Positions 37,878 through 64,000 of a DNA stretch of 64,000 nucleotides are shown one piece after another. This DNA is from Thermoanaerobaculia bacterium. GTDB taxonomy: Bacteria; Acidobacteriota; Thermoanaerobaculia; Multivoradales; JAIOJS01. Made by a program: the position numbers and the translations under genes. The notes beneath the pieces are model-generated. The model saw nothing but the letters and a program-made list of their open reading frames with translations. It was not told the DNA's origin and made no database searches. Where the stretch lies: contig JAUIDB010000006.1 in NCBI GenBank assembly GCA_030429235.1, positions 124,001 to 188,000 of the forward strand, given 5' to 3'. The first letter of the stretch is position 1; every line of letters starts with the position of its first letter.

Positions 37878-38653
37878 CGCTCGCCGCGGCGGCTCCCGCG
37901 GTCTCGGTGGTGGTCCCCTTCTTCGCCAGTTCCGCCACGTTGGCCTCCTGTATCGAGTCTCTGTTGAGCCAAGGGTCGCGGGGCGTTCCGGTCGAGTTCC
38001 TGTTCATCGACAACGGTGCTCCCGACGACTCGGCGGAGATCGTCCGGGAGTACCCCGACGTGGTCCTGCTCCGCGAATCGACCCCCGGGGCCTATGCGGC
38101 GCGCAATGCCGGGTTGCGTCGAGCTCGGGCTCCGATCATCGCCTTCACCGATGCCGATTGTGTGGTGGACCAGGACTGGCTGGAGCAGATCGTCCGCGCC
38201 CTCGAGGTTCCGACCGTCGGCGTCGTGCTCGGCGCCTGCCGGTATCCCCAGCGGGCCTCCTGGGCCCTGAAGTTCCTGGCGGCGTACGAGAACGCCAAGA
38301 TCCAGTACGTTCTGGACCACTGCCCGCCGGCGTGTTTCTTCGGTTACGCGAACAACATGGCGGTTCGGGCTTCGTTGTTCGACGAGTTGGGGCCCTTTCG
38401 CGAATGGCGCCGCGCGGGAGACACCGAATTCGTGCACCGGGTGGCGGCAGAACGCCCCGATCTTCGGGTTCACTTCGATCCGGCGGTCCGGGTCACCCAC
38501 CACGAGTTTCTCTCCTTTCGAGCGCGGGCTCGAAGGCTGAACCTGTACACCGAGACCAACGCCAAGATCGATACGTTTCGCGAATTGACCTTCGGACAGC
38601 GGTTGCGGGTGCTGTCGCGATGTCGCTTGGACGGTCAGGGGAGCGGTCGCTAG
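37874..38653 (+). CDS. family 2 glycosyltransferase
   Basis: 259 residues: VSVVVPFFASSATLASCIESLLSQ, FLFIDNGAPDDS, GAYAARNAGLRRARAPIIAFTDADCVVDQDWL with a DAD metal site and GDTEFVHRV. Relatively short and without membrane helices. It overlaps the sulfotransferase by ATGA, so belongs to the NRPS-A operon. The stop shares the palindrome CTAG with the convergent NRPS-B gene, leaving no room for a terminator. Confidence 0.87.
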   Translation: MTLAAAAPAVSVVVPFFASSATLASCIESLLSQGSRGVPVEFLFIDNGAPDDSAEIVREYPDVVLLRESTPGAYAARNAGLRRARAPIIAFTDADCVVDQDWLEQIVRALEVPTVGVVLGACRYPQRASWALKFLAAYENAKIQYVLDHCPPACFFGYANNMAVRASLFDELGPFREWRRAGDTEFVHRVAAERPDLRVHFDPAVRVTHHEFLSFRARARRLNLYTETNAKIDTFRELTFGQRLRVLSRCRLDGQGSGR

Positions 38654-41600
38654 TCGAGTTCGGAGTCGAGTTCGGCGAGGAGAGCATCTTCGGCGATCCG
38701 GGCCAGCCCGGCGAGACTGGGTTGGGCGAAGACGGTTTCCAGGGGGAGATCGAGGTCGAACTCGTCGCAGAGTCGGAGGATCATCCGCATGGCGGTGAGG
38801 GAGGTGCCGCCCAGCTCGAAGAAATCGTCGCCCCTTCCCACCTCGTCGAGAGCCAGCTCGTCGCGCCACAATCCGGCCAGGAACTCCTCGACCGGTCCCC
38901 GAGGGGGCTCGACGGGGGGGCGAGTGTGCCGTGCGGTCGGCAAGGACCAGCGACGGAGGGCCTCGAGGTCGAGCTTGCCATTGGGAGTCAGCGGTAGATC
39001 GCTCAGTTGGTGAAACTGCGCCGGGACCAGGGGGGCGGGCAGGCGTCGGCCGAGATGGCGGGCCAGCGCTGAGGTATCCACCGAGGCGTCGGCGGTGGGG
39101 ACGAGAAAAGCCTGGAGGGACTCTGGTGCCGGCCCGGACTGCGGCGCGTAGCCGACCTCCTGCAGGATGGACCGCACCCGCTCTTCGTCGATCGCGTCGT
39201 CGAGTTCCTCGAGGGCTTCGTCGCGCTTCTTGTGTCCGAGCCGCACATCCCAGCTGTACGGCAGCGCGTAGTTGTGGAACCCCCGTTCGCGCTGGTGGAC
39301 GAAGATGCCAGCGTCGTTGATCAGACAGTTGGTCGAGCGGCCGGTGTCTTCGGGGCGTACCCAGGGAACCCGCTGCTTCAGATAGGAGTAGAGCTCTTCC
39401 ATGTCGACATCGCAGTAGCGGTAGAAGTCGACGAACCGAACCCGCTCGAAGATCTCGTCGGTCGCGAACAAGCTGACGTCCAGCGTGCGGCTGACGGCAT
39501 CGGGGGTGCGGTGGTAGGCCTTGCGAGAGGCGAGTACAGCCTGGTCTACCTCCTCCGGACTCACCCGTCCGTGGCGGAACATCTCCTCGGTCAGGCGGGT
39601 TTCGAACATCTGACCGCGCGACAGGCCGGTGACGATGGCGGGGATCCCGAGTTCGTGGGCGCGACGGGTGGCGAGGGTGTAGATCGTCTTGAAACAGCCA
39701 TTGCAGACGTTCGAGAAGCGTTGCAAGCTGTCGCGGAAGATCTCGTTCATCGCGGGGGTGGTGGCGAACTCGACGTCGACTCCCAGCTGGTCGGTGACGC
39801 GCCGTATGTTCTCCTTGGCACCCTCCGAGATGAAGCCGTTGTCCAGCGTGAAGGCGTAGATCGAGTAGCCCAGATCGGCGAGTCGACAGAGAGCGTAGGT
39901 ACTGTCCTTGCCGCCGCTGTACAACATCAGACAATCCCAGGGGCCCCGGCGCTGCGCCCGGGCCTCGTCGAGATTGCTCCGCAGGTCATCCAGGGTGCGA
40001 AAGTAACCCGCCGCGTGCTCTCGGATCGACTCGTAGGAGTGGCAGAGCGAGCAGGTCCCCTCGGCGTCGAAGGTGGCACCAGGGTAGTTGGCGGGCAGTC
40101 CGCACCGCCGACAGCCCGCTCCCGGGTTCGGAGTCGGGACGCCGAGGTCGGCATCCGCCGGGCCTGGAGTGCCCACCACCAGAACCGCGCACCGCTCGAC
40201 GCCGGGGAAGGTCTCGATCAGGGTCTCGACCTCGCCCGGTTCGAGCCGAAAGCCCGCGACCTTGACCTGTCGATCGGTGCGACCGAGGTACTCGAGTTTC
40301 GTCGGGTCGACGAACCGCACCAGATCGCCAGAGCGATACCGTACCGCCGCTCCAGGCTCGGGGCCGGGAACGAACCGAGCCGCGGTCTCCTCGGGGAGCT
40401 GATGGTAGCCGCGGGCGAGTCCGTGGCGCGCGATCCACAGTTCTCCAGGAACTCCCGTCGGCACGGCCTGCCCGGCTGGGTTCAGCACCTCGATCTGGAC
40501 ATGGTCAGCCGGCCGACCGATCGGTACGGAGCCGACTCGATCGCTCGCAGGGTCGAATCGATGGACGAGACATCCGACCACTGCTTCGGTGGGTCCGTAC
40601 TCGTTGTAGATCTCGGCCGAAGGTGCGAGGCGCTCGGCGACCGCTGCCGCCAGTTCCGCGGAGAACGACTCGCCACCGACGATGAGCCGACGGACACCGG
40701 TCGCTTCGAAGCGGCCGCTCCGGAGCACGGAGAGGTGGGAGGGAGTGAGTTTCAGGAAGTCGATCTGGTTGCGTTCGACGGCGTGCAGGAACGCCTCGTC
40801 GAGCGCGCCCGCGGCGCGCGGATAGAGCTCGAGCGTTCCCCCGGTGATCAGGGGGAGGAAGAGACTCGTGACGGTGAGGTCGAAGGCCAGTGAGGTCACC
40901 AGTCCGTAGCGCAGGGCCTCGCCTCGCACGTAGGTTCGTTCGGCGAACTCGAGGTAGTCGGCCAGTCCCCGGTGTTCGATCAGCACCCCCTTGGCCCGGC
41001 CAGTCGATCCAGAGGTGTAGAGCAGATAGGCGAGATCGGTCAGGCTTGGGGGTTCCGGGGGCCGCGAGTCGTGGCCGTGGTCGAGGGCCTGACGGACGGT
41101 GGGGGGATCGAGGAGCAGCGTCGCCCCCGAGTCTTCGACCAGCTGTTTCTGGCGCTCCTCTGGATGGGCGGGGTCGATCGGCACGTAGGCGCCGCGGGCA
41201 CTGAGCACGGCCAGGATGGCAACCACGCTCTCCAAGGAACGATCCCCCAGGACGGCGACCCGGTCCCCGGGTTGGAGGTGGTGCACTCGGAGCAGGTGGT
41301 TGGCCAGGATCGCTACCTGGTCCCGGACCTGAGCGTAGTCGACGGACTGATCGACCGTGCCGTCGACCACCAGTTCCAGAGCGACGCGAGTCGGGTGTCG
41401 GTTGGCCGTGTCGAAGAAGGCGTCGACCACCGTCCGCTCGGGCGTAGGGCAACGATCGCTCTGGTTGAAACTATCGAGCTGCTGACGCTCGTCATCGGTG
41501 CGCAGGTCGATGCTGTCGATTCTCTGGTCCGGGTCGCGAAGGAGTGCCTCCACCAAGGTCTCGAAATGGTGCGGGATGCGCTCTCTCGCGGCGGCCGAAA

Positions 41601-42828
41601 GGTGCGTCCGGTTCAGGTCGAAGTCGAACTGGAAACGGCCCGAGCCCGAGAAGTCGTGGATCTGCAAGCGAAGAGCATGCAGATGATCGGCATGACCGGG
41701 ATGGAGCCAGGTCACGGCCGTAGCCGCGTCTCCGAAGCGGCCGAAACGGACGGGCAGGTAGTTCAAGACGGCTCGGCTCATCGAGTGCTCCGGAGTCGGA
41801 GCGGTCCCGGCGGCATCGCTTCGTAGGAGGTCCATTGCGCGGGCCAGGGTCTCCGCACCCAGCCGTCGGAAGGTCGTGCCTTCGGGTACCCTGGCGGCGA
41901 AGGGGAACATCTCGATAAAGAGGCCGATGGTGTCTTTGGCCTCCGGGGTAGAGCGGCCCAGGAGCGGCGTGTCGAACGAGGTCTCCGGCTCTGCACTGAT
42001 CTGGCTCAGGAAGGCGTGGAACAGGGTCGAGAAGAGGGCGAACAGGGAGAGGTGGGGAAGCACCGAGGCGAAGGGGGCCTCGGCCGCCCGCGCGCGCAGC
42101 GCCGAGGAGCGTTCCGCATCCAACTGCAGGCTCGAGCGGACGCTGGCCGTACCGCGGTGGACCGGGGACGGCCGTTCTCCGTAGAGGGTGAGCCCACCCG
42201 GGGCAGTGGTTCGGTCCGGGGTGGTGGAAGACCTGTCACTGGCCCTCGGCCCTGGCGCCAGCGCGTAGTAGCGGTCGGCCGTCACCGGCCGCGGCGCGAA
42301 CTCCGGTTGGCTCTCCAGGGCGAGGTAGCTCGCGGCCAATCGGTCGTAGAGCAGCCGAGTCGACCAGGCATCGGTGATCAGGTGGTGTTGGTTGAGGTAC
42401 CAGCCGGTCTGTCGGTTCGGAAGCCGTACCAGGACGCTGTCGACCAGCGGTCCGTCGAGGGGAAGCGGTCGAGCACAGCGCGCGCGGCCCCAGTCGAGAA
42501 AGCGCGCGACCGCATCCTCTTGGCCACTGAAGTCGGCCACGGTCAGTGCGAGTTCGGAACTCGAGAACCGCTGCAGTCGGCCTCCCGGGCCGGATCGGAA
42601 TCGAGTCTGGAGCGCTTCGCTGGAGGCGGTGACCTGGCGCCAGGCGGCTCGGAATCGCTCCGGCTCCAGCTCGTCCTCGATCACGAAGGCGAAGGCCATG
42701 TTGTAGAGCGGCGACTCGGCGTGGAGCTGCTGTCCGATGGCGATCGGAAGCTGGGCCCGCGTCAACCCGCCGGTGTCCAGTGGGCGGTCGACGGGCTCGG
42801 TCCCTGCGTCCTGCTCGCTGCGCGTCAC
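38650..42828 (-). CDS. non-ribosomal peptide synthetase, C-A(PP-loop)-PCP with interrupted A domain (NRPS-B)
   Basis: 1392 residues. Condensation domain with NQHHLITDAWS (~148). Adenylation core with A3 LLYTSGSTGRAKG (~604), A5 NEYGPTEAVVG (~742) and A8 RTDRQVKVAGFRLEPGEVE (~848). At about residue 890, before A9/A10 (LPAPLVP, TPNGKLDLEAL ~1281), some 340 extra residues are inserted: zinc-type cysteines CRRC...CSLC (~905-926), PP-loop YSGGKDSTYALCRL (~970), CNGC (~1039) and SWDVRLGHKKRDEALEEL. This insert resembles WbpG/PseA-type N-acetyl sugar amidotransferases. Carrier Ser in FFELGGTSL (~1338); no TE. By-eye code D-L-T-K-I-G-E-V-G-K is near the Asn code. It follows the ACP and A genes on the same strand. 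Confidence 0.93.
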   Translation of the reverse strand: MTRSEQDAGTEPVDRPLDTGGLTRAQLPIAIGQQLHAESPLYNMAFAFVIEDELEPERFRAAWRQVTASSEALQTRFRSGPGGRLQRFSSSELALTVADFSGQEDAVARFLDWGRARCARPLPLDGPLVDSVLVRLPNRQTGWYLNQHHLITDAWSTRLLYDRLAASYLALESQPEFAPRPVTADRYYALAPGPRASDRSSTTPDRTTAPGGLTLYGERPSPVHRGTASVRSSLQLDAERSSALRARAAEAPFASVLPHLSLFALFSTLFHAFLSQISAEPETSFDTPLLGRSTPEAKDTIGLFIEMFPFAARVPEGTTFRRLGAETLARAMDLLRSDAAGTAPTPEHSMSRAVLNYLPVRFGRFGDAATAVTWLHPGHADHLHALRLQIHDFSGSGRFQFDFDLNRTHLSAAARERIPHHFETLVEALLRDPDQRIDSIDLRTDDERQQLDSFNQSDRCPTPERTVVDAFFDTANRHPTRVALELVVDGTVDQSVDYAQVRDQVAILANHLLRVHHLQPGDRVAVLGDRSLESVVAILAVLSARGAYVPIDPAHPEERQKQLVEDSGATLLLDPPTVRQALDHGHDSRPPEPPSLTDLAYLLYTSGSTGRAKGVLIEHRGLADYLEFAERTYVRGEALRYGLVTSLAFDLTVTSLFLPLITGGTLELYPRAAGALDEAFLHAVERNQIDFLKLTPSHLSVLRSGRFEATGVRRLIVGGESFSAELAAAVAERLAPSAEIYNEYGPTEAVVGCLVHRFDPASDRVGSVPIGRPADHVQIEVLNPAGQAVPTGVPGELWIARHGLARGYHQLPEETAARFVPGPEPGAAVRYRSGDLVRFVDPTKLEYLGRTDRQVKVAGFRLEPGEVETLIETFPGVERCAVLVVGTPGPADADLGVPTPNPGAGCRRCGLPANYPGATFDAEGTCSLCHSYESIREHAAGYFRTLDDLRSNLDEARAQRRGPWDCLMLYSGGKDSTYALCRLADLGYSIYAFTLDNGFISEGAKENIRRVTDQLGVDVEFATTPAMNEIFRDSLQRFSNVCNGCFKTIYTLATRRAHELGIPAIVTGLSRGQMFETRLTEEMFRHGRVSPEEVDQAVLASRKAYHRTPDAVSRTLDVSLFATDEIFERVRFVDFYRYCDVDMEELYSYLKQRVPWVRPEDTGRSTNCLINDAGIFVHQRERGFHNYALPYSWDVRLGHKKRDEALEELDDAIDEERVRSILQEVGYAPQSGPAPESLQAFLVPTADASVDTSALARHLGRRLPAPLVPAQFHQLSDLPLTPNGKLDLEALRRWSLPTARHTRPPVEPPRGPVEEFLAGLWRDELALDEVGRGDDFFELGGTSLTAMRMILRLCDEFDLDLPLETVFAQPSLAGLARIAEDALLAELDSELD

Positions 42829-54144: not shown

Positions 54145-54723
54145 ATGGCAGAGACGGTCGAACCGAGGGAGAGAGTTGCCGAGCACTTCGCGGTGTTGCG
54201 GGCTCAGCTCGGCGACCGCGACGCCTACGGGGAGCTGTTCCGACAGTACAACGCTCGACTCCTCTACTACCTGCGGCGACTGTTGCCGGTTGCCACCGAG
54301 GCGGAGGACACCCTGCAAGAGGTCTGGGTCACGGTGGTCCGCAAGCTCCCGTCACTGGAGCAGCCCGAGGCCTTCAAGGGTTGGATCTATCGAGTGGCTC
54401 GAAACCGAGCCCTGTCGAGGTTGCGCCGTTCCCGACGCGAAATCGCGATCGATCAGGTCGAGGCGGAGGTCGACGGGAACCTCGATTCCGCGGCCACCGA
54501 CGAGCGCGCCCTGTTGCGGCTCTTCGAGGCTCAACTGGTTCATCGGGGCCTCGAGGAACTGTCGCCTTCCCATCGGGAGGTTCTCACCCTGCGTTTTGTC
54601 GATGAACTGACCTACGACGAGATCGCCGAGATCGTCGGACGATCGATCGGGACCGTGCGATCCCGTCTCTACTACGCCAAGAAAACACTGAGCCGATACC
54701 TAGAGGAGAAACAAGATGAATGA
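54145..54723 (+). CDS. ECF RNA polymerase sigma factor
   Basis: 192 residues: region 2 AYGELFRQYNARLLYYLRRLL and EDTLQEVWVTVVRKLPSLEQPEAFKGWIYRVARNRAL; region 4 LVHRGLEELSPSHREVLTLRFVDELTYDEIAEIVGRSIGTVRSRLYYAKKTL. It lies 3 bp after the hydrolase gene and overlaps a membrane-protein gene that may regulate it. It is a second, distinct ECF system from the one at 4.3 kb. Confidence 0.9.
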   Translation: MAETVEPRERVAEHFAVLRAQLGDRDAYGELFRQYNARLLYYLRRLLPVATEAEDTLQEVWVTVVRKLPSLEQPEAFKGWIYRVARNRALSRLRRSRREIAIDQVEAEVDGNLDSAATDERALLRLFEAQLVHRGLEELSPSHREVLTLRFVDELTYDEIAEIVGRSIGTVRSRLYYAKKTLSRYLEEKQDE

Positions 54724-55189: not shown

Positions 55190-55358
55190 GAGCTTAGTGT
55201 CCCGTGCGGGGATTCCTGCTGACCTCGAACGGTCCTCTTCGCGGCTGTCGCGGTAGTCCTTCTCTGACCGCTCGGTATGCCTCGTCGTGGGGCTTGGCCA
55301 GCGGCGAACTGGACCGTTTCCAGAGTGGCAAAGAACTCGTCCCACGGGACACTAGCTC
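55190..55358. mobile_element. MITE-like element bounded by 12-bp inverted repeats
   Basis: A perfect 12-bp inverted repeat TAGTGTCCCGTG / CACGGGACACTA lies at 55195-55206 and 55343-55354; the match extends to GAGC/GCTC outside with one extra base on the left. The ~135 bp between has no gene. TA at both tips and the size are those of a miniature inverted-repeat element. The right tip provides the TAG stop of tspO, so an insertion there could have set the end of that gene. It might instead fold as a long-range 3' structure. No second copy was seen in the window. Confidence 0.4.
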
Positions 55359-55858
55359 GGGTTCAGCCACCAGAGGGTGCCATTGAGTGCAGTAGCGAAC
55401 AGGCACCAGGCCAGGTAGGGCAGGAGGAGTCGACCGGCGAATCGGTCCAGTTTCGAGAATCGAGCTGCGGTGACGACGATCAGTAGATCGAGGAGGACGA
55501 TGACGGCGAAGGCCCAGCCGGGAGAACGGGCCCCAAAGAAGATTGGGGTCCACGCCGCGTTGAGGAGCAGCTGAGCAGCGAACGCGACTAAGGCTGCGCG
55601 TCGGGCCGAAGATGACGGCTGCCGCGCGATGCGGTACAGGGCGAAGCCCATGGCGAGATAAAGAGCCGTCCACACCGGTCCGAAGAGCCAGTTGGGCGGA
55701 TTCCAGGAAGGCTTGCGGAGGGCCTGGTACCAGGCGTCAGGAGGAAAGGCCCAGCCCGCGAGGGCGGGGGTGAAGCAGAGTGCGATACAGGAGATGAGGA
55801 GAGCGGTTTGCCCGGATCGGCTGGCGAGGCTGCGGGTCGAGGTGGCGAGACCGTTCAT
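55352..55858 (-). CDS. tspO: TspO/MBR tryptophan-rich sensory protein
   Basis: 168 residues with five membrane helices and conserved Trp/Pro segments WYQALRKPSWNPPNWLFGPVWTALYLAMGFALY and LLNAAWTPIFFGARSPGWAFAV. TspO binds porphyrins and is linked to light and oxygen control in photosynthetic bacteria. It follows cbiX with ATGA overlap, in an apparent fasciclin-cbiX-tspO strand order beside a CarH photoreceptor gene. The stop codon lies in the inverted repeat of the neighbouring element. Confidence 0.9.
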   Translation of the reverse strand: MNGLATSTRSLASRSGQTALLISCIALCFTPALAGWAFPPDAWYQALRKPSWNPPNWLFGPVWTALYLAMGFALYRIARQPSSSARRAALVAFAAQLLLNAAWTPIFFGARSPGWAFAVIVLLDLLIVVTAARFSKLDRFAGRLLLPYLAWCLFATALNGTLWWLNPS

Positions 55859-56360: not shown

Positions 56361-56864
56361 CTACTTGCTCGGAGCCGTAGCGGCTGGGATCAGGACGGCG
56401 TCGATGACGTGGATGACGCCGTTGCTGGTCTCGATATCCGTCTGTACGACGTTGGCACCGTCGACCATGACTCCGTTCGAAGTGTCGATGGTGAGCAGGG
56501 TTCCTTCGACGGACTTGGCCTCGGTCAGGTTGACGACATCCGCGGCCAGAACCTTGCCGGCAACTACGTGGTACGTGAGGATCGCCTGCAACTTCTCCTT
56601 GTCAGCGAGCAGGGCTTCGATCGTCCCCGCCGGGAGCTTGGCAAAGGCCTCGTCGGTGGGAGCGAAGACGGTGAACGGGCCCTCGCTCTTCAGGGTGTCG
56701 ACCAGGTCCGCGGCCTGCACGGCAGCCACCAGGGTCTCGAACGAGCCCGCCGCGATCGCGGTGTCGACGACATCCTTGGTTTCTTTGGCCGTCTTTCCGG
56801 CCCATGCCGGCGACGTCAGGGCTGCGATCGTGGTGAGGACGGTCAGCGTTTTGAGGATCTTCAT
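56361..56864 (-). CDS. secreted fasciclin (FAS1) domain protein
   Basis: 167 residues. Signal peptide [17 protein letters not shown], then a single FAS1 domain: [46 protein letters not shown] and [17 protein letters not shown], ending [16 protein letters not shown]1 domains mediate adhesion or bind small hydrophobic ligands. The gene is divergent from carH with a sigma-70 type promoter that overlaps a TTGACA/TGTCAA repeat, so it is a probable CarH target. Confidence 0.92.
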
Positions 56865-57055: not shown

Positions 57056-57061
57056 GCAGTC

Positions 57062-58030
57062 ATGACTAAGCTAGATCCGTCGCAGCCGATCCACAGTATT
57101 GGAGTGGTCGAGCGCCGCACCGGAATCAAGGCCGACCTCGTGCGGGCCTGGGAGCGGCGGTATGGTGCCGTGGTTCCGACACGGACCGAAACCGATCGCC
57201 GCCTCTACTCCGAAGCGGATGTGGAGCGACTGACGCTGTTGCACGAAGCCACCCGCTTGGGGCATCGGATCAGTCACATCGCACGGCTCTCGGACGAGGA
57301 GCTCGGGACGCTGCTCGAGGCCTCGACGGCTCTCGCGCCTCGAGTGGGTACCCGAGTCCTGTCCCCTGACCTCGAGGCGAGACTGGCCGTGTGTTTGCGC
57401 GCCATCGAGGATCTCGACGCCGCTGGACTCCAGGGGGAGCTCACGCGGGCTTCTTTTACGCTCAGCCGCGTAGCTTTGGTCGAAGAGCTCTTGGTGCCGT
57501 TGATGGAGCAGGTCGGGGCGCGGTGGCGGCACGGCACCATGGATCCGGCCCAGGAGCACCTGGCCACGGCTGCGGTGCGCGGATTCGTCGGCGGATTCGT
57601 GGGCTTCCCGACTCCGGCCAGCGGGCCGGTCCTGGTGGTGACGACTCCCGCCGGGCAGCACCACGAACTCGGGGCTTTGCTCGCCGCGGCGATGGCAGCC
57701 GCGGAAGGATGGCGGGTGGTGTACCTGGGACCCAACCTGCCGATCGCCTCGATCGCGCGAGCGGCAACGCGCGCCGAGGCGAGGGCGGTAGCGCTGGGAA
57801 TCACGTATCCGGAAGCGTCTCCCAATCTCGTCGCCGAACTGCGGGCACTGCTCGAGGCACTCGCCGGGATTCACCTCATCCTCGGAGGGCGCGGGGCCAC
57901 CGTCGCCGATTCGCTGCCGGCTTCCCCGTACTGGACCCGGGTCCAGGACATGGGCGCCTTTCAGCGCGCCCTGGCTCGCCTGGGTGACGTCACGAGCACA
58001 GGAGGGCCGTCGGATGGCATCGAAGGCTGA
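57062..58030 (+). CDS. carH: CarH/LitR-type B12-dependent photoreceptor repressor
   Basis: 322 residues. N-terminal MerR helix-turn-helix (HSIGVVERRTGIKADLVRAWERRYG, DRRLYSEADVERLTLL). Then a four-helix B12-cap domain with Trp155 and Glu165-His166 (ARWRHGTMDPAQEHLATA), and a B12-binding Rossmann domain with His201 (GQHHELGALLAAAM). The spacings Trp-to-Glu 10 and His-to-His 35 equal those of Thermus CarH, whose adenosylcobalamin senses light and dissolves the DNA-bound tetramer. Q-H-H-E-L-G replaces the usual E/DxHxxG, keeping the ligand His. It should repress light-induced genes around it in the dark. Confidence 0.9.
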   Translation: MTKLDPSQPIHSIGVVERRTGIKADLVRAWERRYGAVVPTRTETDRRLYSEADVERLTLLHEATRLGHRISHIARLSDEELGTLLEASTALAPRVGTRVLSPDLEARLAVCLRAIEDLDAAGLQGELTRASFTLSRVALVEELLVPLMEQVGARWRHGTMDPAQEHLATAAVRGFVGGFVGFPTPASGPVLVVTTPAGQHHELGALLAAAMAAAEGWRVVYLGPNLPIASIARAATRAEARAVALGITYPEASPNLVAELRALLEALAGIHLILGGRGATVADSLPASPYWTRVQDMGAFQRALARLGDVTSTGGPSDGIEG

Positions 58031-59012
58031 TCGTCACGAAGTGGTCAAGGACTCTCTGGGGCCAGATGATCCCCTGCGACTTGGAGTGAGCGCCTGCCTC
58101 ATGGGGCAGGAGGTCCGATTCAACGGTGGGCACACCCGGGACAACTTCCTGGTGCATACCCTGAGCCAGTGGGTCGAGTGGGTCACCGTGTGTCCTGAGT
58201 TCGAGATGGGCCTGGGGGTTCCGAGGGAGAGCCTCCGGCTGATCGGCGACCCGGAGGCTCCACTCCTGATCGCGCCCAAGTCGGGTTCGGACCACACCGA
58301 GGCCATGAAGGCCTGGTCTGCGCAACGGCTGACCGAACTCGCGCGGCTCGATCTGCATGGCTTCGTACTCAAGCGGGCCTCGCCGAGCTGTGGTCTGTTT
58401 CGCGTCAAGGTCTACGATGACCACAACATGCCCAATCCCGTGGGACGGGGCCTCTTCGCTGCGGACCTCGCTCGAGCGCTGCCGCTCCTGCCGCTGGAGG
58501 AGGAGGGGCGCCTGAACGATCCCCGGCTGCGGGAGAACTTCATCGAGCGGATGTTCGCCTACCGTCGCTGGCGGGAGCTGCTCGAGGATCCGAGTCCGGC
58601 GGGACTCGTGGCCTTCCATTCCGCCCACAAGCTGGCCCTGATGGCCCACTCTCCGGAGCAGCAAGTTCAACTGGGCCGACTGGTCTCCGAAGCCGGGGCC
58701 CGCGATCTCTCGGAGCTCCTCGACGACTACGGTGCGTTGTTCATGGACGTGATGGCCAAGGTCGCCACCAGCAAGCGACACACCAACGTCCTCCAGCACG
58801 TGCAGGGGTACCTCAAGGGCCGATTGGATCGAGGTGACACCCAGGAGCTGGGAGAGGTGATCGAAGAGTACCGCCTGGGTAGAGTGCCCCTGGTGGTGCC
58901 GCTCACCCTACTCCGGCACCACCTCCGTCGACACGAGACGCACGAGTGGCTGGGCGCGCAGACCTACCTGAATCCCTACCCCTCGGAGCTCATGCTCCGC
59001 AATCACGTCTAG
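58014..59012 (+). CDS. DUF523-DUF1722 fusion protein (YbgA-like)
   Basis: About 332 residues. The N-terminal DUF523 domain has conserved cysteines in LGVSACLMGQEVRFNGGH, VTVCPEFEMGLGVPRE and KRASPSCGLFRVK, a pattern shared with the TudS thiouracil desulfidase family that binds a 4Fe-4S cluster. The C-terminal DUF1722 (YbgA) domain holds AFHSAHKLALMAHSP and YHRRHETHEWLGAQTYLNPYP-like sequence. Such fusions often sit beside photolyase genes. GGAGG before ATG 58014 sets the start, overlapping carH. It is convergent with the photolyase, sharing CTAG. Confidence 0.85.
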   Translation: MASKADRHEVVKDSLGPDDPLRLGVSACLMGQEVRFNGGHTRDNFLVHTLSQWVEWVTVCPEFEMGLGVPRESLRLIGDPEAPLLIAPKSGSDHTEAMKAWSAQRLTELARLDLHGFVLKRASPSCGLFRVKVYDDHNMPNPVGRGLFAADLARALPLLPLEEEGRLNDPRLRENFIERMFAYRRWRELLEDPSPAGLVAFHSAHKLALMAHSPEQQVQLGRLVSEAGARDLSELLDDYGALFMDVMAKVATSKRHTNVLQHVQGYLKGRLDRGDTQELGEVIEEYRLGRVPLVVPLTLLRHHLRRHETHEWLGAQTYLNPYPSELMLRNHV

Positions 59013-60415
59013 CGGTCTCGGAACGCGGCGATCGCGCGTCGTCGGGCCGCCTGGTGGTCGACCAGGGGTGCGGGATAGGTGGCCGGGCGGTCTGTGGCGA
59101 GGTGCTTGGGGTCGTGGTGGGCACCGTTCGGGAGCTCGTCGAGTTCGGGAACGAAGCGCCTGATGAACTGCGCTTTGGGGTCGAACCGCTTCGACTGGGT
59201 CCACGGGTTGAAGACCCGGAAGTAGGGAACCGCATCGGTGCCAGTCGAGGCGGCCCACTGCCATCCACCGTTGTTGTTGGCCAGGTCCGCGTCGACCAGG
59301 CTCCGCATGAAGTGTTCCTCGCCCTGGCGCCAGTCGAGGAGGAGGTCCTTGGTCAGGAAGCTCGCGGCGATCATGCGGAGTCGGTTGTGCAACCAGCCGG
59401 TTTCCGCCAGGCAGCGCATACTGGCGTCGACGATTGGGAAGCCGGTTCGTCCCGACTTCCAGGCCTCGAGGGCCTCCGGGTCGTCGTTCCACTCGATGGT
59501 TTCGGTCTCCTCTCGAAAGGCCCGGTACTTGGAGACCCTGGGAAACCCGACGAGTACGTGTCGGTAGAAGTCACGCCAGGCGAGCTGGCGCAGCCAGAGA
59601 GTGATTCCGGGCTGGCCCTGGATCAACTCGCCACCGTTGGCCCGGACGGCCTGCCAGAGAACGCTGCGGGCCGAGATGGCCCCGACCGCGAGGTAGGGAG
59701 AGAGGGTACTGGTCGCGGCGCGGTGGGGCAGGTCGCGGTCCTCGTGGTAGCGGCGGGCGGCATCGTCGAGGAAGCTCTCGAGTCGACGCGTCGCCTCGTG
59801 GGGGCCGGCCGGCCAGAGCCGGTGAGCCGGCCAGTCCCTCGAATCGGGCCAGTTCTCCATCGGCGGGACTTCGACGGCGTCGCCAGCCTCAGGGGCTGGC
59901 AGCGGGAGGTCGAGGCCGCTGTCTTCGAGTCGTCGACTCCAGTTGCGAAAGAAGGGAGTGAACACAGAGTAGGGTTTGCCGGTGGAGGTCTCGATCTCCC
60001 CCGGCGGAATCAGCGTCTGGTCGTCAAACGCCGCCGACTCGATCTCCATGCGGTCGAGCTTGCGGACGACCGCTGCGTCGCGCTGTCGTTCGTTCCACTC
60101 CAGTTCGCGGTTGAAGTAGACCGCTCGGGAATCCGTCTGCCGGGCGATCTCGACCAGGGTTTCGGGCACCTGCGCGAAGGTCGGGCAAACCTCGACTCTG
60201 AGAGTGATCCCACGCCCGGCGAGTTCGTCGGCGAGAGCAGCCACGGACCGGCGAACGAAGTCTCGCTTCGGCTCTCCCCAATCGTGCCGTTCCCACTGAC
60301 GCGGCGTGGCGATGAAGAGACCCGTAACCCGGCCCGGCGAGCGCTGAGAGGCCGCATGCAGGGCGGGGTTGTCCTCCACCCGGAGGTCCGAACGAAACCA
60401 CACCAGGGTTCCCAC
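59009..60415 (-). CDS. phrB: deoxyribodipyrimidine photolyase
   Basis: 468 residues. N-terminal antenna-binding domain (TLVWFRSDLRVEDNPALHAA) and C-terminal FAD domain: STLSPYLAVGAISARSV, LAWRDFYRHVLVGFP, GFPIVDASMRCLAETGWLHNRLRM and NNNGGWQWAASTGTD. This is a class I CPD photolyase that uses blue light to split pyrimidine dimers. It is last of a minus-strand group with the SDR and B12-XRE regulator (2-bp gap), so is likely under the control of the B12 regulators. Confidence 0.94.
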   Translation of the reverse strand: MGTLVWFRSDLRVEDNPALHAASQRSPGRVTGLFIATPRQWERHDWGEPKRDFVRRSVAALADELAGRGITLRVEVCPTFAQVPETLVEIARQTDSRAVYFNRELEWNERQRDAAVVRKLDRMEIESAAFDDQTLIPPGEIETSTGKPYSVFTPFFRNWSRRLEDSGLDLPLPAPEAGDAVEVPPMENWPDSRDWPAHRLWPAGPHEATRRLESFLDDAARRYHEDRDLPHRAATSTLSPYLAVGAISARSVLWQAVRANGGELIQGQPGITLWLRQLAWRDFYRHVLVGFPRVSKYRAFREETETIEWNDDPEALEAWKSGRTGFPIVDASMRCLAETGWLHNRLRMIAASFLTKDLLLDWRQGEEHFMRSLVDADLANNNGGWQWAASTGTDAVPYFRVFNPWTQSKRFDPKAQFIRRFVPELDELPNGAHHDPKHLATDRPATYPAPLVDHQAARRRAIAAFRDR

Positions 60416-60417
60416 GT

Positions 60418-61887
60418 TCAGTTCTCCTCTCTCTCGGTAGTGCGTTCCTTTCCCTCGGCCGAGCGGGCGATTCCGGCGAGCATGCCCGAGAAAACGAAGC
60501 CGTGGAACGGCCAGACCGCGTACCAGTAGATCAGCCCGAACAGGCCTCGAGCGTGGAAGGTGGCGCGTTGCGTCACGGTGGTCGTGGAGTCGGTTCCGCT
60601 GACTTCGAAGTCGAGAAAGGCGATTCCGGGCAGCTTCATCTCGGCTCGCAGTCGGAGCTTCTGATTCGCTTCGACCTCGACGACCCGCCAGAAGTCCAGG
60701 GCGTCACCATGCCGAAGCTCTTCGGGGTTGCGTCGACCGCGGCGCAGCCCCGGGCCCCCGACGAGTCGGTCGAGAAAGCCGCGCAGTCGCCAGAGGAGAT
60801 CGGCGGCGTACCAGCCATTGCCACCACCGATTCTCTGCACGGCGCGGAAGGTCTGCGCCGGACTGGCCTCGACCTGTGTGGTTCTCTCGTCCCTAAAGAT
60901 GGTTCCACCGGCCCAGGCCGGATCGCCCGGCAGGATGCCGGCGTCACTCCACGAGGTGTCGACGCTGCCTTCGAGCGAGGCGGCGATGGCTCGACGAATC
61001 GCCAGTCGGGCGGTGAGTCGCGGTGCTGGCATCCACTGCGCAGCCTCCTCGTTCCGACAGACCACCCGATTGCGTAGGCCCTCGGTCAGTGGCCGAGCGA
61101 TGCGGTGGGAGAGGGGAGTGACGAGATGGATCCACAGAGAACTCAGCCAAGGAGTGAGCACCGGTACCGGTAGGACCCAGCGCCGGGGCAGCCCGAGTTC
61201 CTCTGCGGTCAGGTCCATCAGCTCGCGATAGGTGACGACGTCGGGTCCTCCGATATCGAGAGTGCGGCCGATGGTCTCCGAGACTTCGAGACTGGCGACC
61301 AGATAGTGCAGGGCGTCTCGAATCGAGATCGGCTGGCATTCGGTCTCGACCCAGCGAGGGGTCACCATCAGGGGCAGTCTCTCGACCAGGTAGCGGAGCA
61401 TCTCGAACGAGGCGCTGCCTGATCCGATGACCATAGCGGCGCGCAACACGGTCACCGGCACCGTGGTCGCTGCGAGGGCTGATTCCACTTCGCGGCGCGA
61501 CGCGAGATGCTCGCTCAGGTCGTCCCCGGTTTCGCCGAGGCCACCGAGGTAGATGATTCGCTGGACGCCGGAGCGCTCCGCGACGCGAGCGAAACGCTCA
61601 GCCATGGTGCGATCCTCGCGCGCGTACCCGCCACCGGCGTGGATCATCGAGTGCAGCAGGTAGTACGCCGCATCGCAGCTGGCGAGGGCTCGATGGAGAT
61701 CCTCCTCCACGGTGGCGTCACCCTCCACGACTTCGAGCCGGGGATGGCTCGACCAGCCACGGTGGTCGAGCTTCTTGGCGGAGCGTGCCAGACATCGCAC
61801 GATGTAACCGCGCTCTAGCAACAGAGGGACCAGGCGGCCGCCGATGTAGCCGGTCGCACCGGTGACGAGGATTCGCTGGTTCTTCAT
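60418..61887 (-). CDS. NAD(P)-binding SDR protein with DUF2867 domain
   Basis: 489 residues. An atypical SDR part (RILVTGATGYIGGRLVPLLLERGY, YYLLHSM, RIIYLGGLGE) is followed by a ~160-residue DUF2867 domain (TTQVEASPAQTFRAVQRIGGGNGWYAADLLWRLRGFLDRLVGGPG, LFGLIYWYAVWPFHGFVFSGML). These fusions recur in photolyase/LitR clusters with unknown substrate. ATGA overlap with the upstream regulator and a 2-bp gap to phrB make a three-gene operon. Confidence 0.85.
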   Translation of the reverse strand: MKNQRILVTGATGYIGGRLVPLLLERGYIVRCLARSAKKLDHRGWSSHPRLEVVEGDATVEEDLHRALASCDAAYYLLHSMIHAGGGYAREDRTMAERFARVAERSGVQRIIYLGGLGETGDDLSEHLASRREVESALAATTVPVTVLRAAMVIGSGSASFEMLRYLVERLPLMVTPRWVETECQPISIRDALHYLVASLEVSETIGRTLDIGGPDVVTYRELMDLTAEELGLPRRWVLPVPVLTPWLSSLWIHLVTPLSHRIARPLTEGLRNRVVCRNEEAAQWMPAPRLTARLAIRRAIAASLEGSVDTSWSDAGILPGDPAWAGGTIFRDERTTQVEASPAQTFRAVQRIGGGNGWYAADLLWRLRGFLDRLVGGPGLRRGRRNPEELRHGDALDFWRVVEVEANQKLRLRAEMKLPGIAFLDFEVSGTDSTTTVTQRATFHARGLFGLIYWYAVWPFHGFVFSGMLAGIARSAEGKERTTEREEN

Positions 61888-62777
61888 GTTGGACTTTCGC
61901 TGAGAAGGTCGGCCATCGAGACCTCCAGGGCGCCGGCGATCTTCAGGCTCGCCTCGAGCGTAATGTTCTGTTTGCCGCGCTCCACGGCGGACAGGTAGGG
62001 GCGGGTCAGCCCCGATCGCTGTGACAGCTCGGCCTGGCTCAGGCCGAGGGCCGTGCGGAGTCTCGTGATTCTCTGGCCGACCACGCTGAGATAGTCCCGG
62101 GGGTCGCGGACACTGCTGAGGCCCACCAACCGCGCCGCGGCCTGGAGACCTTCGAGCGCATCGCTCACGATGGCATCCGCCGTCAGCTGGCCGGGCTCGA
62201 GGTCGCGCGTGCCGGAGCCACCCAGTAGCACGGGGATTCCCGCCCGCGAGAGGGCGAGAGTCAGCTTCTGCGCCTCAACTCCGGGGCGTAACGTCACCGA
62301 AAGTGCCACGAGGTCCGGCCCGGAGTGTCCGACATAGTCGACGAAGTCGCGTCGGGGGGGAGCGAGGCCGAGGTGGTCGACTCGCCATCCCTGCCAGTCG
62401 AAGAGGGCCGCGACGATTCGGGCCGGCAGCGTGTGGTTGTCTCCAGGGGCCGCGGCCACGAGCACCGTTTTGTCCAGCGGTCGGGAGGGCCGAAAGGCTA
62501 GGGTGACTCTCTCGATCTCCCGACGAGTGGCCTCGCTGGCCCAGTGTTCTTGGGCGATGGTGATCTCTCCGCGATGCCACAACTCCCCGATTTCCCATTG
62601 GGCGGGGGCCAGTACTTGGAGGAGAAGAGTCGGCAAGTCGAGACCCCCGGCCAGCCCCTGCTCGATCGCTCGGGTGGCGGCCGGGCGGTCGCAGGCGACG
62701 AGGGCGGAGAGGTACTGGACGCGCAGCTCGGCGGACAGAGAGGGTGAAGTTGGGAGGCTAGGGAGGGGGTCGCTCAT
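61884..62777 (-). CDS. B12-binding regulator with C-terminal XRE helix-turn-helix
   Basis: 297 residues. The N-terminal ~215 residues are CarH-like: Trp67 and Glu77-His78 in LWHRGEITIAQEHWASEA match the B12 cap (10-residue spacing kept), and GDNHTLPARIVAALFDWQGW is the DxHxxG site with His115 (Gly becomes Pro). Instead of a MerR head, the C terminus is a Cro/C1 type HTH (LRTALGLSQAELSQRSGLTRPYLSAVERGK). It is predicted to sense adenosylcobalamin and light and to regulate itself, the SDR and phrB genes. It is divergent from the SRPBCC gene across a TTGACA motif. Confidence 0.85.
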   Translation of the reverse strand: MSDPLPSLPTSPSLSAELRVQYLSALVACDRPAATRAIEQGLAGGLDLPTLLLQVLAPAQWEIGELWHRGEITIAQEHWASEATRREIERVTLAFRPSRPLDKTVLVAAAPGDNHTLPARIVAALFDWQGWRVDHLGLAPPRRDFVDYVGHSGPDLVALSVTLRPGVEAQKLTLALSRAGIPVLLGGSGTRDLEPGQLTADAIVSDALEGLQAAARLVGLSSVRDPRDYLSVVGQRITRLRTALGLSQAELSQRSGLTRPYLSAVERGKQNITLEASLKIAGALEVSMADLLSESPT

Positions 62778-62785
62778 GCGGTGAA

Positions 62786-62827
62786 GTATAGCATAGTTGA
62801 CAGATCGGTGTAAGGTGGTTTACGATG
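62786..62827. promoter_or_regulatory. divergent promoters with shared TTGACA/TGTCAA motif
   Basis: Plus strand: TTGACA (62798-62803), 18 bases, TACGAT (62822-62827), reading to the SRPBCC gene. Minus strand: TATACT (-10, plus 62786-62791) reading to the B12-XRE gene with start only ~9 bases away, so nearly leaderless. The plus -35 TTGACA lies in the minus spacer, so one bound regulator could cover both promoters. The motif is the one seen at carH and the fasciclin gene. Confidence 0.55.
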
Positions 62828-62850
62828 GTGAACATCGAAGGCGATCCACC

Positions 62851-63318
62851 ATGACCCACCAGCTATCCCGCACGACCTCCATCCCCCTTCCCTCCGAGGA
62901 TGTTTTCGCGTTCTTCTCGGACGCGACCAACCTACAGTCACTCACTCCTCCGTGGGTCGGCTTCGAGATCCTCTCCCCAACTCCGGTCGAGATGCGGCCT
63001 GGAACGCTGATCGACTACCGAATTCGGCTGCGGGGCATCCCAGTGCGCTGGCGCAGCGAGATCACGGTCTGGGACCCTCCTCACCGTTTCGTCGACGAGC
63101 AGCGTCTGGGACCCTATCGTTCCTGGCGCCACGAGCATCGTTTTCGGCCCACGCCGGGTGGTACCGAGGTGCTGGACGAGGTGACCTACCGGGTCTGGGG
63201 TGGCGGGCTCGTCAATCGTCTTCTCGTAGCTCCCGACCTCGATCGGATTTTCGACTACCGCCAGCGCCGGATGGCCGAACTCCTCCAGTCGAAGCCGCCG
63301 AAGGACGGCCCGACGTGA
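62851..63318 (+). CDS. SRPBCC (START-like) ligand-binding protein
   Basis: 155 residues of the helix-grip fold: TTSIPLPSEDVFAFFSDATNLQSLTPPWVGFEIL, IPVRWRSEITVWDPPHRFVDEQRLGPYRSWRHEHRF. These are cyclase/dehydrase or CDP-binding-like SRPBCC proteins, frequent in photolyase/LitR islands. ATG 62851 begins the domain; the track start overlaps the promoter. The stop overlaps the next gene (GTGA). Confidence 0.85.
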   Translation: MTHQLSRTTSIPLPSEDVFAFFSDATNLQSLTPPWVGFEILSPTPVEMRPGTLIDYRIRLRGIPVRWRSEITVWDPPHRFVDEQRLGPYRSWRHEHRFRPTPGGTEVLDEVTYRVWGGGLVNRLLVAPDLDRIFDYRQRRMAELLQSKPPKDGPT

Positions 63319-64000
63319 CCGCCCTGCTGTACGCCGGTGGCGGCTGCCTCGTAGCGAGCTGTCTTCTCTGGGGGTGGAGCCTCTGGCGTCGAGATGCCAG
63401 CGTGGTCGACATCTGGTGGGGCCTGGGTTTCGTTGGAGTCACCTGGTACTACTACCAGAGGTCGGGAATCGGCGCGTCCTGGCAGCTCCTTCACCTGCTC
63501 CTGGTGTCACTCTGGGGAGTACGGCTGGCGATGCACATCGCCTGGCGCGGTCGGGGAGAGGGGGAAGATCGTCGCTACGCCGCGATGAGGAAGCGCGGCG
63601 GCAAGGAGTTCTGGAGGAAGAGCCTGATCACCGTCTTCTGGCTGCAGGCGGGACTCGTCGTGGTGCTTTCCTTCCCGCTGTACGTCGTACAGACCACCGC
63701 CAGCTGGTCCTATCCGAGTCTGTTCTATCTGGGCTGTCTGCTGTGGATCGTTGGTTTCCTCTTCGAAGCCGTCGCGGACTGGCAGCTCCTGCGATTCAAG
63801 AGCGTTCCGGCCAACGCCGGGCAGGTCCTGGATCGGGGTCTATGGCGCTATAGCCGACACCCCAACTACTTTGGCGAGTCTCTGCTGTGGTGGGGCTACG
63901 GCTCGATGGCTCTGGCCGCCGGGAGTTTCTGGTCGCTCCTGAGTCCGTTGATGATGACGTTGCTCCTCCTTCGGGTGTCGGGAGTGACGTTGCTCGAGAA
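63315..64000 (+). CDS. DUF1295 membrane protein, steroid 5-alpha-reductase-like (partial, runs off window)
   Basis: At least 228 residues, absent from the ORF track because no stop lies inside the window. GTG start overlaps the SRPBCC stop. Several membrane helices (YAGGGCLVASCLLWGWSLW, VVDIWWGLGFVGVTWYYY, TVFWLQAGLVVVLSFPLYVV) and the family motif GLWRYSRHPNYFGESLLWWG identify DUF1295, related to steroid 5-alpha-reductases and isoprenylcysteine methyltransferases. It belongs to the light/B12 gene group. Reaction and substrate unknown. Confidence 0.87.
   Translation, partial: MTALLYAGGGCLVASCLLWGWSLWRRDASVVDIWWGLGFVGVTWYYYQRSGIGASWQLLHLLLVSLWGVRLAMHIAWRGRGEGEDRRYAAMRKRGGKEFWRKSLITVFWLQAGLVVVLSFPLYVVQTTASWSYPSLFYLGCLLWIVGFLFEAVADWQLLRFKSVPANAGQVLDRGLWRYSRHPNYFGESLLWWGYGSMALAAGSFWSLLSPLMMTLLLLRVSGVTLLE

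Follow-up and report, generated by a model that had tools for sequence, protein, structure and literature searches.

Does the regulator encoded at the head of a photolyase operon, and divergent from a lipid-type operon, sense light through cobalamin, and is it a CarH protein with its DNA-binding head at the other end? The locus belongs to a Thermoanaerobaculia bacterium (GCA_030429235.1; contig JAUIDB010000006.1 of a 4.85-Mb genome), and the window, i.e., the whole stretch of DNA analysed, comprises 64,000 nucleotides of this contig. A sequence-only reading had proposed a CarH-like B12 sensor with swapped domains that controls a phrB operon by light-dependent repression. The features concerned are as follows.

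57056–58030 (+): MerR-type CarH/LitR paralogue with the full GxxW/EH/GxxH/GxxxP signature; its cobalamin-binding domain (CBD) nests with the TtCarH clade
57984–59012 (+): DUF523 (2-thiouracil desulfurase)-DUF1722 protein, adjoining the MerR paralogue
59009–60415 (−): phrB, deoxyribodipyrimidine photolyase, third gene of the xre operon (NCBIfam NF007955, 516.5 bits, cut-off 506); kept in the same-genus genome G001
60418–61887 (−): SDR/NmrA and DUF2867 protein, second gene of the xre operon (4-bp overlap); order kept in G001
61884–62777 (−): XRE-CBD regulator, 297 residues, ATG start, with four-helix bundle, Rossmann cobalamin module and C-terminal Cro/C1 HTH
61887–62090 (−): XRE/HTH_3 domain, residues 230–297 (HTH_3 E 4.4e-14; C.AhdI and SinR matches)
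62115–62735 (−): cobalamin-binding module, residues 15–221 (Pfam; model residues 13–222 match 8J2W/CarH)
62785–62826: two divergent sigma-70-like promoters, TTGACA-18-TACGAT on the plus strand (62797–62826) and CTTACA-18-TATACT on the minus strand (62814–62785)
62823–62837 (+): candidate operator CGATG-N5-CATCG, whose 5+5 inverted repeat is perfect and overlies the −10/start region of the plus-strand promoter
62851–63318 (+): SRPBCC protein, first gene of the divergent operon (start codon inferred; Pfam, scanned from 62797); orthologues in G001 and G004
63315–63998 (+): DUF1295 protein (Pfam), running past the window end

The domain architecture of the regulator is confirmed by Pfam matches over their cut-offs: (i) B12-binding_2 at residues 21–89 (50.3 bits, cut-off 23), (ii) B12-binding at residues 104–196 (48.3 bits, cut-off 32.1), and (iii) HTH_3 at residues 239–291 (52.7 bits, cut-off 23). 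The last match bears out that the head is a Cro/C1 HTH at the C terminus, not an N-terminal MerR; a Pfam scan of the 297 residues yields no MerR domain, and the NCBIfam CarH model reaches 63.5 bits, below its cut-off of 400. The HTH assignment is supported at sequence level by the matches to HTH_3 and C.AhdI (E 2e-10 for the latter), while PADLOC matches are limited to the HTH domain and concern mostly control proteins of restriction systems. Beyond the CBD, Pfam returns HTH families only and the AlphaFold model contains no extra domain; a biliverdin-binding globin-like domain is not found. A full-length orthologue in G004 (locus L023), about 50 % identical, has the same Pfam domains. Since the two share this architecture, the gene is neither a chance ORF nor a product of misassembly.

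W67, E77-H78 and H115 stand in the translation where the sequence-only reading had placed them, and the light-responsive signature is complete (G64xxW67, E77H78, G112xxH115, G137xxxP141). The elements GxxW, EH, GxxH and GxxxP constitute the experimentally derived signature of light-responsive CBDs according to the accessible text of the SignatureFinder paper (PMC11796333), and all four are also present in the L023 orthologue. Across a 36-row alignment, W67 and E77 are invariant and H68, H78 and H115 nearly so. H68 directly follows W67 and aligns with His132 of the TtCarH W-H dipeptide, the upper ligand described as required for light-driven tetramer breakdown (PMC10442372); it is retained in G004 (L005) and in the G001 fragment. 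The reported Pro for Gly in the DxHxxG motif is likewise present (D113-N-H115-T-L-P118, Pro118 replacing Gly) and is no defect: the ligand His of the solved photocobilin 8J2X is followed by this Pro as well, within a matching H-x-L-P-A-R-I-V-A stretch, which rules out Pro118 as a mark of lost cobalamin binding.

The AlphaFold model, built from 36 sequences (mean pLDDT 87.7, pTM 0.74), displays a four-helix bundle, a Rossmann fold and five C-terminal helices. Compared with PDB structures, model residues 13–220 match photocobilin 8J2W with Z 26.6 (1.6 Å over 204 residues, 34 % identity), and the model scores Z 21.3 with CtMerR (8JBS), 20.6 with TtCarH (5C8E), 20.0 with methionine synthase (1BMT) and 19.2 with AerR. 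By these values CarH and methionine synthase are level in fold, and the photocobilins stand out. A G038 protein (L007:4-2076) has a weak Phycobilisome match upstream of its cobalamin module and may be a photocobilin whose N-terminal domain is of bilin type.

Phylogenetic analysis of the CBD was based on 55 rows chosen by the author from 101, near-copies and long branches having been dropped. Domain labels stem from home-made HMMs, that for XRE having been built from the two XRE-CBD proteins themselves; 29 proteins were left unlabelled by these HMMs, 12 of which were checked with Pfam. The two XRE-CBDs pair at 99/97, and 27 MerR-CBDs together with TtCarH (28 rows) split off at 100/100 with the XRE pair outside; a quick 101-row tree agrees in placing the pair outside the MerR-CBD/TtCarH group. 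Forcing the pair into the group of TtCarH and the window's MerR paralogue is rejected by the AU test (p 0.0006), whereas neither a position as sister to all MerR rows (p 0.44) nor a clade with the photocobilins (p 0.49) is rejected, these p-values being indicative since the groups were named after the tree was seen. Both trees and the AU test thus rule out a CarH whose head was moved to the other end, and the notion of a CarH-like, domain-swapped protein is not supported: the CBD falls outside the group of TtCarH and the window's MerR-CarH, and is structurally nearest to the photocobilins. Because the CBD lies outside the 100/100 group of all sampled MerR-type domains, its fusion to Cro/C1 looks separate.

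Within the xre operon, the SDR-DUF2867 gene and phrB are 2 bp apart. On the divergent side, the DUF1295 gene is followed outside the window by genes for a UfaD-like amine-oxidase-type FAD protein, a DUF1365 protein (UfaO-like) and a CMAS methyltransferase (UfaM-like). As given in the accessible text of PMC7380195, furan fatty acid synthesis involves the DUF1365 protein UfaO, the desaturase UfaD with its NAD/FAD domain, and the SAM methylase UfaM; from this gene content we infer that the SRPBCC-DUF1295-ufa-like operon makes furan or methylated fatty acids. For Pseudomonas, a light-inducible region adjoining pmlR1 is described that comprises phrB, a short-chain dehydrogenase, an FAD oxidoreductase and ufaM (PMC9758184, in part), and the operon contents at the present locus are homologous to this LitR regulon, the two being likened by gene content rather than by direct alignment. 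The proposed control of the phrB operon agrees with the regulator gene heading xre-SDR-phrB; the target list was too narrow in that it omitted the divergent furan-fatty-acid-type operon.

The MerR-CarH paralogue is located at the opposite end of the cluster. Its gene is adjoined by those for an ECF sigma factor (54145–54723, +), a TspO/MBR protein (55352–55858, −) and a fasciclin-domain protein (56361–56864, −); in G001 (L121), too, a fasciclin gene neighbours that for MerR-CarH, and L109 and L120 have one in the vicinity of ufa genes. Elsewhere in the window (38650–42828, −), an NRPS (Condensation, AMP-binding, PP-binding) contains an SGGKDS PP-loop insert between its adenylation and carrier domains, with a weak QueC match at residues 966–1037.

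The gap between the divergent xre and SRPBCC genes measures 73 bp and contains the two sigma-70-like promoters, which overlap (2 found, 0.1 expected); the DNA-binding site suggested earlier (62786–62827) nearly coincides with them. A TTGACA-anchored alignment of the control regions of the window and G001 gives 41/72 identities, a value reached in none of 500 shuffles. The best 14-mer common to the control regions of the window, G001 and G004 reads ATGGTGAACATCGA in the window, and mononucleotide shuffles produced shared motifs as good in 0/100 cases for 14-mers, 2/100 for 12-mers and 9/100 for 10-mers. An ATG-N5-CAT core recurs in all three regions, and the evidence for CGATG-N5-CATCG as a candidate operator, resting on three short sequences, is suggestive. 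Allowing up to one mismatch, the window contains 3 copies of this repeat where 3.76 are expected, which is no enrichment; the exact copy occurs only at 62823. The sequence GTGTAAN4GTTTAC occurs once in the genome.

Among the genomes searched, full-length XRE-CBD was seen in this one and in G004 only; in G001 the two ends of the gene lie on separate contigs, one carrying xre-SDR-phrB and the other the xre start with SRPBCC-DUF1295. In G004, xre is divergent from SRPBCC-DUF1295-UfaD-UfaO-UfaM-like genes, and SDR and phrB are absent from the 20 kb covered. The divergent SRPBCC-DUF1295 link is thus kept in both relatives despite cobalamin modules of only 43–54 % identity. A class-wide search was positive in 3 of 148 genomes, counting the C-terminal piece of G001, and a sample of the phylum gave full-length matches in 2 of 396. 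A contig scan, which relied on only two peptide patterns, returned 70 loci, with the XRE-CBD type recognised only in L023 (G004) and L024 (the G001 fragment). At a cut-off of 1e-32, no fused form was detected in 377 genomes from the phylum of a Myxococcota locus or in 396 from that of an Actinomycetota locus; the result for the phylum of a Gammaproteobacteria locus (0/398) carries little weight, as there was no positive whatever. These whole-genome samples were without Chloroflexota. Among plasmids (49 records matched) and phages (3 records matched), no match covered 80 % of the query and no fused form was found. The Myxococcota-locus sample also contains a cobalamin protein with a 444-aa frame (region L128:1465-2783, G650), which has the best non-orthologous score (142.8 bits). 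A PduO-type adenosyltransferase is encoded in this genome, G001 and G004 alike. This genome also encodes a MetH-like protein with B12-binding_2; in G004, XRE-CBD is the only B12-binding_2 protein besides a MetH-like one (1181-aa frame).

DUF1365 genes are present in 17 of 59 genomes, and the operons concerned differ in their regulators. XRE-CBD accounts for two of the 17 (G000, G004), and an HTH_17-CBD regulator lies beside the operon in five (G002, G018, G010, G007, G015), in every case with Tyr at the position of the ligand His; HTH_17 was confirmed with Pfam for G007 and assigned by a home-made HMM in the other four. Seven genomes (G012, G027, G021, G029, G024, G022, G014) have no CBD match in the stretch fetched, and in three (G056, G040, G038) the contigs end too early. 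Since XRE-CBD occurs in two genomes and Tyr-bearing HTH_17-CBD in five, the DNA-binding head, and probably the chromophore too, differs between relatives at one homologous operon. The Tyr (GD[PR]Y) is seen in L106:5587-6471, L107:3964-4929, L109:5038-5919, L111:12287-13300 and L117:12187-13056 (minus strands), and a sixth HTH_17-type CBD regulator with Tyr for the ligand His occurs in L020. Judged from their sequences, the Tyr-bearing regulators possibly form a B12-free or differently ligated class.

On balance, we lean towards XRE-CBD being a one-component AdoCbl-dependent photoreceptor that would repress both operons in the dark and be released by light. In the dark, AdoCbl would be enclosed by the four-helix bundle on one side and the Rossmann fold on the other; H115 would supply the lower ligand, and W67, E77 and P141 would surround the adenosyl group. 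This bound state would bring the C-terminal Cro/C1 domains together on the 73-bp divergent promoter region and thereby repress the xre-SDR-phrB operon, to which the regulator gene belongs, as well as the SRPBCC-DUF1295-ufaD-ufaO-ufaM-like operon. On illumination, the Co-C bond would be cleaved, H68, the counterpart of TtCarH His132, would take the cobalt, and the ensuing change of assembly would induce both operons. What the analysis shows directly is the domain make-up, the ligand residues, the predicted fold, the gene order with its retention in relatives, and the promoter-like sequences. Dark repression and light release are suggested by analogy with CarH, which covers ligands and setting, and we infer that the protein binds AdoCbl, responds to light and changes its oligomer, as well as its DNA site and the sign of regulation. 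In favour of a photoreceptor-repressor, the closest solved structures are AdoCbl photoreceptors (8J2W, CtMerR, TtCarH). Further points for it are the complete signature in both full-length proteins, the retained H68, the stretch matching 8J2X, the PduO-type adenosyltransferase of all three genomes, the likeness of the operon contents to the LitR regulon, the conserved divergent link, the lack of any B12-binding_2 protein other than this and MetH in G004, and the overlapping promoters. Against it, CtMerR and the photocobilins lie on the XRE-CBD side of the tree, and the accessible text of PMC11796333 states that they may use photochemistry other than CarH's; the photocobilin-like module of XRE-CBD may also not form CarH-type tetramers.

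The MerR-CarH protein (57056–58030), a second full-signature regulator in the same cluster, speaks against this assignment as well and would fit a relay, in which XRE-CBD acts as a light-released activator or anti-repressor and MerR-CarH is the true repressor of one operon. Such an opposite sign or relay is quite improbable, however, given that in G004 the XRE protein and the divergent ufa-type operon occur without any MerR-type CBD protein, and that the promoter-like sites agree well with the sigma-70 consensus, leaving little need for an activator. Sensing of the adenosylcobalamin or corrinoid level instead of light, with AdoCbl binding alone toggling DNA binding, would suit the cobalamin module and its ligand residues as such, and the genome does hold a MetH-like B12-binding_2 protein and an adenosyltransferase. 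Yet the neighbours are photolyase and furan-fatty-acid-type genes rather than genes for B12 synthesis, transport or B12-dependent enzymes, and the adenosyl-contacting W, E and GxxxP, tied to the light response in the accessible text of PMC11796333, are retained; a level sensor is therefore considered unlikely. The Tyr in place of the ligand His at five homologous operons also speaks against the favoured assignment, as it implies that cobalamin binding is not obligatory for a CBD in this position. XRE-CBD could be devoid of a chromophore in practice, its cobalamin fold serving as a protein-protein platform in the manner of class II LitR with its LOV protein; these CBD regulators at five same-order operons, and class II LitR running a homologous regulon without B12 (PMC9758184, in part), would agree with such a role. 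We regard it as very doubtful, because XRE-CBD and its full-length orthologue retain H115 and every signature element.

Beyond the dark repressor favoured here, a wider proposal is more tentative, and we doubt it slightly more than we believe it: XRE-CBD might represent a separately evolved class of B12-photoreceptor transcription factor, in which a non-CarH AdoCbl module with a C-terminal Cro/C1 head acts as dark repressor of photolyase and furan-fatty-acid genes and has replaced, in two genera of one acidobacterial order, the HTH_17-CBD regulators without the cobalt-ligand His that other members have kept. XRE-CBD looks like a rare, separately evolved means of light-induced gene switching. 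The characterised B12-photoreceptor transcription factors in the literature consulted have MerR-type heads and form AdoCbl-driven tetramers on the operator; if the proposal is true, a Cro/C1 head at the opposite terminus would mean that the B12 module is able to drive an unrelated repressor geometry. Engineering would also gain a green-light repressor that evolved in nature, and furan-fatty-acid-type synthesis, so far tied to singlet-oxygen ECF sigma factors and LitR/LOV, would have a B12-light input open to testing. G004, with XRE-CBD as sole CBD regulator besides MetH, offers a clean system.

A literature search of titles and abstract openings, with most subscription papers outside its scope, retrieved no B12 or cobalamin photoreceptor with XRE. 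In the part of P2TF available, 35 of 37 proteobacterial B12-domain transcription factors are MerR, the other two being unnamed there. The accessible text of PMC11796333 reports light-responsive CBDs fused, among others, to HTH domains at N- and C-terminal regions, and the word XRE is absent from this paper. Thus, the broad idea of a light-responsive CBD with an HTH at either end is already in print.

Compared with known systems, XRE-CBD shares with CarH/class I LitR (TtCarH 5C8D/5C8E) the two-part cobalamin module, the lower His, Trp, Glu-His and upper His (H132/H68) as well as the placement at photoprotection genes, but it has a C-terminal Cro/C1 instead of an N-terminal MerR and a CBD outside the MerR-CBD group. 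Class II LitR of Pseudomonas (PmlR/PplR) governs a homologous light-inducible regulon (phrB, SDR, FAD-oxidoreductase, ufaM), yet is described as having a MerR head and one of the two B12 domains, and as receiving light via a LOV protein (PMC9758184, in part). CtMerR (8JBS) and the HTH_17-CBD regulators are likewise DNA-binding proteins with a CBD off the CarH branch; in contrast to XRE-CBD, their MerR/HTH_17-type head is N-terminal, and those at the five ufa operons have Tyr for the ligand His. Nearest in CBD sequence and structure are the photocobilins (SasPcob 8J2W/8J2X, AbDPcob 8J2Y), with the HxLPARIVA stretch shared with SasPcob; where these carry a biliverdin-binding domain, and SasPcob a W-Q, XRE-CBD has its XRE domain and the upper His.
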